Positions 6,074-9,625 of a stretch of 14,884 nucleotides of DNA are shown one piece after another. The DNA is from Alphaproteobacteria bacterium (lineage in GTDB: Bacteria; Pseudomonadota; Alphaproteobacteria; JAJFFI01), in NCBI GenBank assembly GCA_021776755.1, contig JAJFFI010000344.1, forward strand, positions 1 to 14,884, given 5' to 3'. A program made the position numbers and the translations under genes. The notes beneath the pieces were generated by a model. It was not told where the DNA came from and searched no databases. It was given only the letters and a program-made list of their open reading frames with translations. Each line of letters opens with the position of its first letter. The stretch's first letter is position 1.

Positions 6074-6460
6074 ATGGACGATACTTCAGGCGTCATCAAC
6101 GCATCCGATCTCTTCGCCGACGATCCGGGCGAAATGTTCGGCGACCTCGGCGAACCCGATTATCAGCGCCGGCTGACCGACAAGATCCTGGCGGCCTTCA
6201 ACCACGCGTATTCGGTCGGGGAATCGGAAATCGCCGACGTTCTCAAGGCGGCGCTCAAAATGGCCGAATCTCGCGGCACCCGCGAATTCCCCGCCCGGCG
6301 GAGCGAGCAGGCCGTGGACCAGGCCGACGCCTGGATCCAGTTCGTGGCAGCCCGCGACCACTACAAGGCTCTGGTCGAGGGCGGAGCCGCGGATGCCGAT
6401 GAATGCCAGAATGCGCTCCGCGACATGAAGTCCCGCTATCAGGTCTGGTCGAACGCCTGA
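6074..6460 (+). CDS. Small acidic helical protein, function unknown
   Basis: The protein has 128 residues and starts with ATG at 6074; no strong Shine-Dalgarno is seen. The N-terminal 27 residues are acidic (DLFADDPGEMFGDLGEPD). Three likely helices follow: YQRRLTDKILAAFNHAYSVG, ESEIADVLKAALKMAESRG, and from EQAVDQADAWIQFVAARDHYKAL through DADECQNALRDMKSRYQVW, with a short charged linker. No signal peptide, membrane segment or known catalytic motif is present, so it is probably cytosolic and may act through protein contacts (inference). Two CtrA-box-like motifs lie upstream. It is followed after 150 bp by tRNA-Ser, which has its own promoter. Confidence 0.65.
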   Translation: MDDTSGVINASDLFADDPGEMFGDLGEPDYQRRLTDKILAAFNHAYSVGESEIADVLKAALKMAESRGTREFPARRSEQAVDQADAWIQFVAARDHYKALVEGGAADADECQNALRDMKSRYQVWSNA

Positions 6461-6548: not shown

Positions 6549-6610
6549 GTCCAGCGCTCGCAACCGGGCGGGTTGGCCCGCCGATTTTGCGGGTTTCCCG
6601 GCAGCACCCA

Positions 6611-6699
6611 GGAGGGATGGCAGAGCGGTAATGCAGCGGATTGCTAATCCGTCAACGTGTAACAGCGTTGCGAGGGTTCGATTCCCTCTCCCTCCGCCA
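6611..6699 (+). tRNA. tRNA-Ser (anticodon GCU), CCA encoded
   Basis: All arms can be drawn. The acceptor GGAGGGA (6611-6617) pairs perfectly with TCCCTCC (6689-6695). The anticodon stem is GCGGA/TCCGT (one G-U) around the loop TTGCTAA, with GCT at 6643-6645. A long variable arm, CAACG...CGTTG (6653-6670), marks a class II tRNA. The T arm is GAGGG-TTCGATT-CCCTC (6672-6688). The discriminator G is followed by CCA at 6697-6699. The tRNA reads AGC and AGU serine codons. Such tRNA-Ser genes often serve as integration sites, but no second copy of the 3' end and no integrase lie in this window. Confidence 0.97.
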
Positions 6700-6813
6700 T
6701 TTGCCCATGCCGCGGCACTGCAGCGCCTCTCCCCGATAACTGCCGCCGGCGCGACGCTCTGGCATGGCCCTTCCCGAGTGCGTGGAATTGAGAAACTTCA
6801 ACGTCTGCCACCG

Positions 6814-6850
6814 AATTGGTCCCGAAGATTTTCCGAAATTCCAATTTTTT
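6814..6850 (+). terminator. Candidate terminator downstream of tRNA-Ser
   Basis: AATTGG (6814-6819) pairs with CCAATT (6841-6846), and the T-run continues to 6850. The loop is long (21 nt) and the stem AT-rich, so the structure is weak. The T-run and the position after the tRNA are the support. Confidence 0.3.
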
Positions 6851-6945
6851 ATAGAGCCGCTATGCGGATTTCCGCGAAAACCTGTCAAGCGCTTAATATC
6901 ATTGCAAAATTTGAGTTTCCTGAATACAGTTGCACGAAGTCAACG

Positions 6946-6969
6946 GTGGCCCGCAAAATGCGCGGCCAC
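6946..6969 (+). ncRNA. Strong 10-bp hairpin in the intergenic region
   Basis: GTGGCC-CGCA (6946-6955) pairs with TGCG (6959-6962) and GGCCAC (6964-6969), with an AAA loop and a single bulged C at 6963. Ten base pairs with one bulge are unlikely by chance at this spot. It may be part of a small RNA or a leader. No U-tract follows, so it is not a standard terminator. Confidence 0.4.
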
Positions 6970-7113
6970 GGAGGTCTCCAAGGGTGGAAATCCATCCAAC
7001 ACCGAAAGCGGAGAGATTGTCAGGGGTCCGCTGATTCTGGGTTTTCATCTTGAAATACAAAGCGAATCGACGAACCTGCTCCGGAATAGCTGATTTTCGG
7101 CAACGTTGAGACA

Positions 7114-7131
7114 TGTTGCAGAAATGCAGCA
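7114..7131 (+). ncRNA. Hairpin with GAAA tetraloop upstream of the leader ORF
   Basis: TGTTGCA (7114-7120) pairs with TGCAGCA (7125-7131) through seven pairs, including one G-U, closed by a GAAA (GNRA-type) tetraloop. It lies just upstream of the Shine-Dalgarno of the 37-codon ORF. Confidence 0.4.
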
Positions 7132-7163
7132 GAGCAAGAAAGATTTGCGTTGAAGGAGGCCAA

Positions 7164-7277
7164 ATGCTATCTCTCCTCACGCTTTCAGGCATCGGAAGTC
7201 CCGCGTTGGGAAGATTTCCGGCCCGAAAGAAACTGGAGGGGGCTTCCTCTCGCACTCCGGGCAACCGGACAGTGTGA
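7164..7277 (+). CDS. Candidate 37-residue leader peptide
   Basis: ATG at 7164 is preceded by AAGGAGG (7153-7159), the strongest Shine-Dalgarno in this half of the window, with a 4-nt spacer. The frame runs 37 codons to TGA at 7275-7277. The peptide starts MLSLLTLSGIGSPALG, continues with a basic RFPARKKLE stretch and ends TPGNRTV. It is 140 bp upstream of the M23 start. Its last codons run through the first CAA-loop hairpin (7256-7269), and its stop lies just before the second, so a ribosome on it would control folding of the array. No run of one amino acid typical of classical attenuators is seen. It may be a leader peptide, an unrelated small protein or a chance ORF. Confidence 0.4.
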   Translation: MLSLLTLSGIGSPALGRFPARKKLEGASSRTPGNRTV

Positions 7278-7381
7278 TCCCGGGCAACCGGGTAACATAA
7301 ACAAGTAACCGGCGGAGCAACCGCCCAAGGGCAAGATGGCGATCCAATCGCGACACAGGCAAGACGGCGGATCAACCGCCG
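7256..7381 (+). repeat. Array of five hairpins with loops ending in CAA
   Basis: Five short hairpins follow one another. They are TCCGG-GCAA-CCGGA (7256-7269), CCCGG-GCAA-CCGGG (7279-7292), GGCGG-AGCAA-CCGCC (7311-7325), GCGA-TCCAA-TCGC (7339-7351) and CGGCGG-ATCAA-CCGCCG (7365-7381). The stems differ, but every loop ends in CAA, and the first two are GNRA-type GCAA tetraloops. The last two sit in a 28-bp direct repeat that begins GGCAAGA (7330 and 7358). Between these repeats the stem bases change on both sides in a way that keeps pairing. The array ends 36 nt before the M23 start codon. Confidence 0.6.
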
Positions 7382-7417
7382 GAAAGTGCGGGACAAACTA
7401 ACTCTGGGTAGGGATAC

Positions 7418-9625
7418 ATGGTGCGGCTGCAGGACGTGCTACGCCGTGACGGGAAATGTGGGGGTGCCAATCGCCCGAACGCCCGTCAGGCTGACGATGG
7501 TCAAATCGGTGATGCTCAAGCGAGCACAGGGGCCGGTGGATCAGATCGCAACGCTTCCAACCGAACGGAAGGGACCGCCACGCGCGGCGCGTTCCGCCGG
7601 GCTCCGGCAAAGCCGGACCCGCGGTCCATTTCGGCCGAAGCCCGCCGCGCGGCATCTGCTGCGCATACACGGTTCGCGGAAACTTTCGCAAGCGATGAGG
7701 AGCGCGCCCGCAGCCCCTTCGCGAAGAAGGTTTCCGACGCCCGCCTGCATTTCACGGGGACCAGCCAGTATGTCGTCCGCGGATTCCGCAACGCCCGCCT
7801 GAAAATCCGTACCGTTGCCGTAATGAAAAGCCGCGTCGTCAAGGCGCGGCTCTCGAATGCGCTCACCCATTGCCGGACCCGCATCCGCGCAGGCTGGCGC
7901 AACTGGCGCCATCAGCGCGCGCATTTCGGCCGTTTCGATGTCATTAACAGGTCGATCGCGGCAGAACGTGCGCGGATCGAGGCCGCCGCCGCGGATGCCT
8001 CGGCGTCTGTACCGGCACGGGCACCCACGCCGCAGTCCGCCCGCCGCGGCCGTCTGGTCCGCACCCTGAGAGGATCGGCGCGGAGCGCACCCGTGCGCGC
8101 CGCCAGCACGATCGACGATCCGGCCGAGCTGTTCCGGCAAATGCAGGCTCATGCGGAATCCCAGTCCCGGCGTTCGGACGAGGTGCGCGCACGCCTCAAG
8201 TCCGCGGGCTTCCGGGTCCGCGTGTCGCGCGGTCTTCGCGTCTTTGGCATGCGCATCTTCACCGGGATCGGCGGCTTCATGGGCTGGGCCGCTGGCTGTG
8301 TCTTCAGCGCCTGGTCAGCACTCGGGCGGCGGTCGCGCGGGCTGATTCCGTCGCGCGAGGTCATTTACCGGTCGCGCGGCAAGGTTTCCCATCACCGCAT
8401 GTCCCCGACCGTGCAGGTCGGCGGCGCCATCGCATCGGTGGCGGTCGTGATGTGGGCCGGGTTCGCGTCCTATTACTATGTGTCGTTCGATCACATGATC
8501 CAGCAGCGCGACCGCGAGATTGCCTCGCTCAAGTCGGCGTATCGCAGCATGGCTTCGATGCAGGAGCAGACGCGCGGCGAAATGGAACGCGTGACGGCCG
8601 AGCTTGAGACCACCTATCAGCGCATCGTCGAGGTGATCGACCGCGCCGGCATTCCGGCCCGGGCCAAGGTCGGCCCGGTGGGGGCCGTCTCGGTGAAACT
8701 CGCCGAAGTGCCGGCCAGCGCGCCGAACGCCTTCAAGCGCGACATGTACCGGATGCGCAAGAACTGGGGCGCGCTCTCCCAGCGTACGGCCGATCTGGGC
8801 AGCGCCTTCGTCGTCGCCGGTGCGCAGTTCGAGACGGTTGTATCCGCGCACGGCGCGGTCAGCTCCCACCGCGATGGCCTGATCCAGCGCGTGGCCGAGC
8901 TCCAGACCGAGATGGCCAACCTCCGCACGACCCAGGAAGAAGTTCTGGCCCGCGTCACCGAGCGCACCCGCAGCAACATCGTCGAGGTGGCCCAGGTCAT
9001 CGAGAAGACCGGCCTTGATGCGAAGGGCCTGCTGGCCCGCCTGCAAAAGGAGCGCCGCAAGGCCTCGCGCAAGCTCCGGTTCGCGCGCGGCGGCCCGTTC
9101 ATCGAACTGGCCTCCGCCAAGCTCCCGTCCGGCGATCCGCTGGTGACCCGCGTCGCAAAGCTCGACAAGGACATGGGCCAGTGGCAGGACTTCCAGCAGA
9201 TCCTCAGGATGCTGCCGATCTCCACGCCGGTCGACGTCTTCACGCCCACCAGCGGCTTCGGCAAACGGCGCGATCCGATCCGCCGGCGGTGGTCGATGCA
9301 CAGCGGCTTTGACATGGCCAACAAGATCGGCACGCCGATTCTCGCGTCCGCGCCCGGCAAGGTCACTTTCGCTGGCTGGCGCGGCGGCAACGGCCGCATG
9401 ATCGAGGTCGACCATGGTCTCGGAATCACAACACGCTATTTGCATCTGTCGGAAATTCTGGTTGAAGAGGGGGATCAGGTCGGCTTCCGCGACAAGATCG
9501 GACTCATGGGCAGTTCGGGCCGCAGTACCGGCTCGCACCTGCACTACGAGATCCGCATCGAAGGGCGGGCGGTCAATCCACGGCGCTTCCTGCAAGCAGG
9601 GAAATTTGTCTTTGTAGGAAAATAA
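7418..9625 (+). CDS. Membrane-anchored M23 peptidoglycan endopeptidase with DUF5930-like region and long Arg-rich N-terminus
   Basis: The protein has 735 residues, with ATG at 7418 and AGGGA just upstream. Residues 1-310 are very basic (58 Arg in the first 330 by hand count) and match no domain I know. Residues about 311-358 (PSREVIYRSRGKVSHHRMSPTVQ, in two pieces, then the membrane segment VGGAIASVAVVMWAGFASYYYV) look like the start of the DUF5930 family. Residues 358-550 are long coiled-coil helices. Residues 605-725 are the M23 domain with all metal and catalytic positions: His628 and Asp632 in HSGFD, His676 in YLHLS, and His707 and His709 in SHLHYE. The catalytic domain should face the periplasm and cut peptide cross-links. 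A second hydrophobic stretch (about 276-300) complicates the topology. The first 60 residues look poorly folded, so the true start could be later, but no Met occurs until residue 136. The bactofilin gene follows after 49 bp. Confidence 0.85.
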   Translation: MVRLQDVLRRDGKCGGANRPNARQADDGQIGDAQASTGAGGSDRNASNRTEGTATRGAFRRAPAKPDPRSISAEARRAASAAHTRFAETFASDEERARSPFAKKVSDARLHFTGTSQYVVRGFRNARLKIRTVAVMKSRVVKARLSNALTHCRTRIRAGWRNWRHQRAHFGRFDVINRSIAAERARIEAAAADASASVPARAPTPQSARRGRLVRTLRGSARSAPVRAASTIDDPAELFRQMQAHAESQSRRSDEVRARLKSAGFRVRVSRGLRVFGMRIFTGIGGFMGWAAGCVFSAWSALGRRSRGLIPSREVIYRSRGKVSHHRMSPTVQVGGAIASVAVVMWAGFASYYYVSFDHMIQQRDREIASLKSAYRSMASMQEQTRGEMERVTAELETTYQRIVEVIDRAGIPARAKVGPVGAVSVKLAEVPASAPNAFKRDMYRMRKNWGALSQRTADLGSAFVVAGAQFETVVSAHGAVSSHRDGLIQRVAELQTEMANLRTTQEEVLARVTERTRSNIVEVAQVIEKTGLDAKGLLARLQKERRKASRKLRFARGGPFIELASAKLPSGDPLVTRVAKLDKDMGQWQDFQQILRMLPISTPVDVFTPTSGFGKRRDPIRRRWSMHSGFDMANKIGTPILASAPGKVTFAGWRGGNGRMIEVDHGLGITTRYLHLSEILVEEGDQVGFRDKIGLMGSSGRSTGSHLHYEIRIEGRAVNPRRFLQAGKFVFVGK

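Follow-up and report, generated by a model that had tools for sequence, protein, structure and literature searches.

A candidate structured 5′ leader of CAA-loop hairpins upstream of an alphaproteobacterial M23–bactofilin operon

Genes and features of the locus

The DNA analysed here, which we call the window, is a stretch of 14,884 nucleotides from an alphaproteobacterial genome (G000) that is 68% complete and that we compared with one other genome of its order (G001). Within it, a 718-nt stretch bordered by a tRNA-Ser gene (6611–6699) on one side and by an M23 peptidase gene on the other holds an array of five short hairpins (Table 1). An earlier note on this DNA had placed the array directly upstream of an M23–bactofilin gene pair, with 36 nt between the end of the array and the M23 start codon. 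Pfam confirms the gene pair, and the distance is exact for the ATG at 7418, a start that is supported by an N-terminus (MVRLQDVL) conserved in two homologues. The sole Pfam match of the M23 protein is the M23 domain at residues 627–721. The gene combines two marks of the LmdC type, a C-terminal M23 domain and an adjacent bactofilin gene.

Table 1. Features of the hairpin array, its predicted fold and the downstream operon. Positions are those of the window; p is the predicted pair probability.
Feature	Position	Strand	Description
Structured domain with extended closing helix (predicted)	7233–7407	+	7233–7238 pairs with 7402–7407, then 7248–7256 with 7385–7393
Closing helix, 5′ arm (predicted)	7248–7256	+	9-bp helix with one U-G pair; pair probabilities 0.54–0.999
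Hairpin unit 1	7256–7269	+	TCCGG/GCAA/CCGGA, loop GCAA; p 0.39 for the outermost pair, at least 0.997 for the four inside it
Hairpin unit 2	7279–7292	+	CCCGG/GCAA/CCGGG, loop GCAA; p at least 0.995
Hairpin unit 3	7311–7325	+	GGCGG/AGCAA/CCGCC, loop AGCAA; own-hairpin p 0.012–0.013, predicted partner unit 5
28-bp tandem duplication	7330–7385	+	carries units 4 and 5; 9 differences in 28
Hairpin unit 4	7339–7351	+	GCGA/TCCAA/TCGC, loop TCCAA; p 0.974–0.999
Hairpin unit 5	7365–7381	+	CGGCGG/ATCAA/CCGCCG, loop ATCAA; own-hairpin p 0.012–0.013, predicted partner unit 3
Closing helix, 3′ arm (predicted)	7385–7393	+	pairs with 7248–7256
AGGGA, possible Shine-Dalgarno	7410–7414	+	just outside the structured domain; from sequence
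M23 peptidase gene, LmdC-like, 735 aa	7418–9625	+	Pfam PF01551, E 3.2e-31
Bactofilin gene, 155 aa	9639–10106	+	Pfam PF04519, E 2.7e-25; 13 nt after the M23 gene

The array region is presumably transcribed. A consensus scan of 6650–7500 found no promoter of the sigma-70 type and no terminator-like site on the + strand; the one terminator-like site in this interval lies on the − strand, over unit 3, where 1.2 such sites are expected by chance. A weak promoter candidate of the alphaproteobacterial type is present at 7150–7173. Its spacer is one base shorter than the consensus, and two equal-scoring matches occur elsewhere in the window.

We also note some features of the surrounding DNA. The GC content is 0.43–0.53 between the tRNA-Ser gene and the array (6800–7174), compared with 0.61–0.69 in the flanking tRNA and M23 stretches. 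We considered the tRNA-Ser gene as an integration site and rejected this, as the window holds no second copy of its last 12–19 bases. About 28 nt before the tRNA-Ser gene lies a GC-rich hairpin (6566–6583, GGCGGG/TTGG/CCCGCC on the + strand) followed by a short T run, possibly the terminator for the reading frame that ends at 6460; on the − strand it scores 15.2 bits with the hairpin model described below. Farther away, at 1798–2934 on the − strand, the window encodes a protein in which a GNAT-type acetyltransferase domain at the N-terminus is joined to a cyclic-nucleotide-binding domain at the C-terminus.

The hairpin array and its predicted fold

The five hairpins with CAA-ended loops that the earlier note had described at 7256–7381 are all present, and all have perfect stems. 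To count hairpins in shuffled sequences we required a stem of four or more pairs without mismatch and a loop of 4–5 bases ending in CAA. Five such hairpins were never found in 5000 dinucleotide shuffles of 7256–7381 (mean 0.03, maximum 2), nor in 3000 shuffles in which the shared loop triplet was left free (maximum 2). The density of hairpins irrespective of their loops is less extreme, with five or more in 12 of 5000 shuffles. Outside the array the window has four further CAA-tailed hairpins, two on each strand. We then have the comparison with real sequence: across 130 other loci (1,162,244 bases, both strands, with loci derived from the window excluded and some of the loci overlapping one another) there was no cluster of at least four hairpins with a common loop end within 130 nt, and there were 20 clusters of three. 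A further 61 loci also had no cluster of at least four. Because it is absent from the shuffles and because no clusters of four or more occur in the other loci, we conclude that the five-hairpin array is real, rare and non-random. Tandem Repeats Finder called no array here. The AT skew of 0.50 is unusual, being reached by 1.3% of 19,363 windows, and is not decisive.

How many independent hairpins the array holds is a separate matter. Units 4 and 5 lie in the two copies of a tandem duplication, an identical 12-mer is common to units 1 and 2, and a 16-mer of unit 3 recurs in unit 5 with a single mismatch. From the duplication and these long identical cores it follows that the number of independent hairpins is two or three, not five, and the five units under selection that the earlier note implied shrink accordingly once duplication is allowed for. 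The description of the units as kept loops on changed stems is likewise partly right. The CAA is kept, but the phrase overstates the case, as two of the five loop bases differ between units 4 and 5. Within the 28-bp repeat, where the stem was said to have changed with pairing kept, this is true of only one pair, which differs on both sides (A7342–T7348 against G7370–C7376); the change of G7352 to C does not preserve a pair but adds one to unit 5. Units 1 and 2 provide one additional changed pair (T-A against C-G). With the stem pairs numbered outwards from the loop, all units agree at pairs 2 and 3; pair 1 is A-T in unit 4 and G-C in the others; at pair 4, units 1 and 2 have C-G and units 3–5 have G-C; and pair 5 is, from unit 1 to unit 5, T-A, C-G, G-C, broken and G-C. 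Pairing has thus been retained through base changes, in no more than two or three independent lineages.

The preferred fold is not the row of five separate hairpins that had been proposed. In the predicted fold of 7240–7400, units 1, 2 and 4 form with a probability near 1, and units 3 and 5 pair with each other. The minimum free energy (MFE) is −66.9 kcal/mol, compared with −55.6 kcal/mol for five hairpins plus the closing helix and −43.3 kcal/mol for five hairpins alone. The closing helix, which was absent from the earlier note, encloses the array at its borders, and MFE folds of 7200–7420 and of 7230–7450 extend it to the domain given in Table 1. When the flanks were shuffled, the same eight pairs were obtained in 27 of 2000 cases with 15-nt flanks and in 337 of 2000 with 40-nt flanks; the predicted helix is modestly unusual at its position.

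The stability of the predicted fold depends on the strand. For the whole domain (7233–7407) the z-score is −4.8 on the + strand and −0.9 on the − strand; the corresponding values are −4.2 and −1.3 for 7240–7400, and −5.1 and −1.3 for 7248–7393 (−5.5 and −1.5 with a second set of shuffles). Over all stretches tested, z lies between −3.3 and −5.5 on the coding-sense strand and between −0.5 and −1.9 on the opposite strand. Units 3–5 alone are equally stable on the two strands, at −31.6 (+) and −31.9 (−) kcal/mol (z −3.3 versus −1.9), and we take the strand asymmetry to be due in part to the GCAA loops. The lowest z among 72 windows located 5′ of 36 related M23 genes was −2.6. These windows came from 42 of the 80 related loci described below, six of which were dropped for lack of a start, with 25 shuffles each and with the first ATG or GTG of the open frame taken as the start. 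An excess of unpaired A was considered as evidence for an RNA and rejected (34, against 35.9 ± 1.7 in shuffles).

The possible Shine-Dalgarno sequence is unpaired with a probability of 0.94–0.99 in the 7230–7450 fold, in which the start codon is paired, and of 0.29–0.78 in the 7180–7440 fold. Since the exposure of the ribosome site varies with the length folded, we make no firm statement about translation.

Searches for relatives of the array

The check proposed in the earlier note, for conservation at other M23–bactofilin loci, failed in the loci compared: the orthologous operon in G001 lacks the array. A single CAA-tailed hairpin is present 5′ of that orthologue (CAAG/TCCAA/CTTG, L035:5812–5824). 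The G001 locus has three CAA-tailed hairpins on that strand in 11 kb, at a density upstream of the gene like that in the rest of the locus. By eye from the reading frames, the downstream order (M23, bactofilin, and a hydrolase on the other strand) is common to G001 and the window, and the upstream genes differ.

At the DNA level no similarity to the array was found in 95 other genomes, for which the best first-look candidates were scored, or in plasmids and phages. The covariance-model search that the earlier note had suggested found only the window above chance level. Specifically, a model of the whole leader (R2) gave matches in two of the 95 other genomes under stricter filters, at E 0.20 and 0.37, which we take as chance; run on 80 related M23 loci together with L035, L036 and the window, it gave, besides the match to the window itself, only matches at E 1.2 and 4.5. 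The 80 loci are the best 80 of 101 confirmed in a wider genome scan, and one of them, L069, is on a contig exactly as long as the one with the G001 orthologue, so that the two are probably the same sequence. None of the 80 has a cluster of at least four hairpins with a shared loop. When the four closest M23 sequences were used to scan named genomes, 35 stretches came up, of which none was confirmed. A second covariance model, of the single hairpin, covers units 3–5 only, because the difference between 4- and 5-base loops shifts the stems out of register; it misses units 1 and 2. The mark of a conserved cis-regulatory leader, structure 5′ of orthologues, was thus found neither in G001 nor, by model, in the 80 related loci, and a single occurrence does not make a class.

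Within G000 the searches likewise showed no other cluster. Its core CGGNNCAACCG has 69 matches there, two of them inside the array, compared with 68 for the reversed control, which is background; the repeated CAACCG has 28 matches against 30 in the control; and the hairpin model gives 25 matches up to E 10 that are clustered only in the array. The paired-core pattern occurs in 116 of 289 genomes, and its reversed control also matched widely. Two nearby copies of CCGGGCAACCGG occur in 2 of the 289 genomes, that of the window and one other. At L038 (G035:C13:104688–104728), from another member of the same taxonomic class, two copies of CCGGGCAACCGG lie 29 bp apart, the distance for units 1 and 2 being 23 bp. 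One genome, G078, has 17 paired-core matches against 1 in the control, 16 of the 17 being one identical 48-nt word. Seven of these 16 copies begin less than 60 bases from a contig start, and the word is probably an insertion-sequence end at which the assembly breaks, unrelated to the array.

The statement of the earlier note that no named element has this pattern holds for Rfam 15 at gathering and at lax thresholds: at the gathering score the whole window matches only tRNA-Ser, and 6700–7500 gives no match at E up to 1. Literature searches on bactofilin–M23 operons, leaders with tandem stem-loops, motifs of structured RNA, quasipalindromes and autoregulation by repeated hairpins gave no entry that we recognised as this element.

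Leaders of the CsrA/RsmA type contain several hairpins with a common loop word near the ribosome-binding site, the sites for CsrA having GGA in the loop. The array resembles them in having several hairpins with a common loop word in such a 5′ position, but GGA occurs in none of its five loops, and we rejected a CsrA/RsmA-bound leader. The GCAA of two of the five loops fits the GNRA tetraloops, whereas the other three are pentaloops and not GNRA. Palindromes of the REP/BIME type are short intergenic inverted repeats that occur in clusters, as the array does, but the array shows no sign of repetition elsewhere in G000. A dispersed repeat (REP/MITE) was rejected because the sole DNA match in this 68%-complete genome is the window itself (8 of 17 first-look candidates scored). 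No named element tested here or known to us fits the array.

Alternative accounts of the array

Our preferred reading, to which we give somewhat less than even confidence, is that an M23–bactofilin (lmdC-bacA-like) transcript begins with a lineage-specific structured 5′ leader whose core is the array. We favour it because of the strand-specific stability, the position, the closing helix and the recorded need for tight expression of LmdC. Of the proposal in the earlier note, an RNA leader or multi-site element, what stands is the non-random, strand-specific fold upstream of M23–bactofilin and the lack of an Rfam match; what falls away is the count of five independent units under selection and the row of five separate hairpins as the preferred fold. 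The failure to find conservation, the equal strand energies of units 3–5, the lack of a promoter by scan, the number of unpaired A, which does not exceed that in shuffles, and the dependence of ribosome-site exposure on the length folded all count against a leader. In the lmdC-bacA operons of Alphaproteobacteria the M23 gene also adjoins the bactofilin gene, and the available part of PMC10945521 argues that LmdC-type enzymes must be tightly expressed. The same part of that source reports that the rubrum gene lysed a large share of E. coli cells, which makes a control element here plausible. The operons differ from the window in that this part of the source has no hairpin leader, the words "leader" and "untranslated" occurring 0 times in the main text.

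A structured leader might work as follows. The apical element, consisting of C-G, G-C and usually G-C pairs under a CAA-ended loop, would offer a protein or RNA partner several copies of one docking site. Either binding of the partner or a change between the paired state of units 3 and 5 and separate hairpins would alter the stability of the domain. With the base of the domain abutting the ribosome-binding site, this stability would set the output of the M23 enzyme, whose level must stay tight. Basal stem positions are kept only as pairs, and the apical pairs and the CAA as sequence, as expected of a multi-site binding platform, although two or three independent units make this weak evidence. 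A functional leader would provide a handle on how bacteria hold a wall hydrolase that determines cell shape, and that is toxic in excess, at the right level along with its bactofilin scaffold; it would also be a recognition element of repeated hairpins that Rfam lacks.

The structured leader is the best single account, with duplication and template switching without function close behind. According to the latter, which we consider possible though on balance doubtful, one or two hairpins were duplicated locally (units 4 and 5 and probably 3; units 1 and 2) and template switching between the inverted repeats in replication kept their arms complementary. The CAA loops would then be common by ancestry, and the changed pairs would reflect correction, not selection. 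The tandem duplication and the long identical cores speak for this account, and so does an array that is missing in G001 and was not found elsewhere by DNA or by model. It also has a published route to compensatory changes, as template switching is reported, in the available part of PMC8794818, to create and maintain RNA hairpins that carry them. By itself it explains neither the closing helix that frames the array, which is rarely reproduced with shuffled 15-nt flanks but more often with 40-nt flanks, nor the strand asymmetry, the latter being attributed in part to the GCAA loops. The process would also have to be rare, given that 1.16 Mb of other DNA has no clusters of at least four hairpins. 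If it is correct, the array is a clean natural case in which duplication and template switching mimic the covariation usually read as selection on RNA.

The same inverted repeats could instead act as DNA. Five repeats of the form CGG-N4/5-CCG might, close to the promoter of the M23 gene, be operators for a transcription factor that binds as a dimer, which we regard as unlikely. The arms are perfect as DNA too, CGG/CCG half-sites are present in four of the five units and the upstream position fits, but the spacer is conserved as CAA on one strand, its length is 4 or 5, and the spacings between centres (23, 32.5, 27 and 28 bp, calculated by hand) are out of helical phase. The background frequency of the core in G000 gives no sign of a regulon, and Pfam recognised no transcription regulator among the 14 proteins scanned beside the operon, five of which have no family at all. 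Neither enriched sites elsewhere nor helical phasing was therefore found, although a dedicated factor with a single target could still be at work. Less probable again is that the 718-nt stretch harbours a separate gene for a small RNA, with the array as its 3′ part. A predicted closed multi-helix domain in a long stretch without a recognised gene would suit such a gene, but 6650–7500 lacks a terminator-like site on the + strand, and the domain abuts the M23 start region.

A more specific form of the structured leader would be a new autoregulated class in which the M23 protein, through its strongly basic and lineage-specific N-terminal part, binds the CAA hairpins of the mRNA that encodes it. 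We regard this as very improbable; if true, it would couple synthesis of the wall hydrolase to the free, and not the bactofilin-bound, enzyme. The part in question (7418–8353) consists of about 310 Arg-rich residues ahead of a likely membrane segment, and an Arg-rich part of some 300 residues in this place sets the protein apart from LmdC. Its net charge is +38 over 312 residues in the window protein, and +38 over 301 and +31 over 296 residues in two homologues. The closest M23 homologues (P0002–P0004) are 57–72% identical, with 57–58% for P0002 and P0003, and come from metagenome contigs; the Arg-rich part is common to P0002 and P0003 and is missing in the G001 orthologue, whose locus is also without the array. 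The likely membrane segment is preceded by a conserved stretch, REVIYRSRGKVSHHRMSP, whose likeness to the published BacA-binding beta-hairpin was judged by eye only. Both genomes of the order also have another M23 gene (G000:C82:7033–7563 and G001:C33:39166–39924), 50% and 44% identical, respectively, to the M23 protein of the window in the aligned part.
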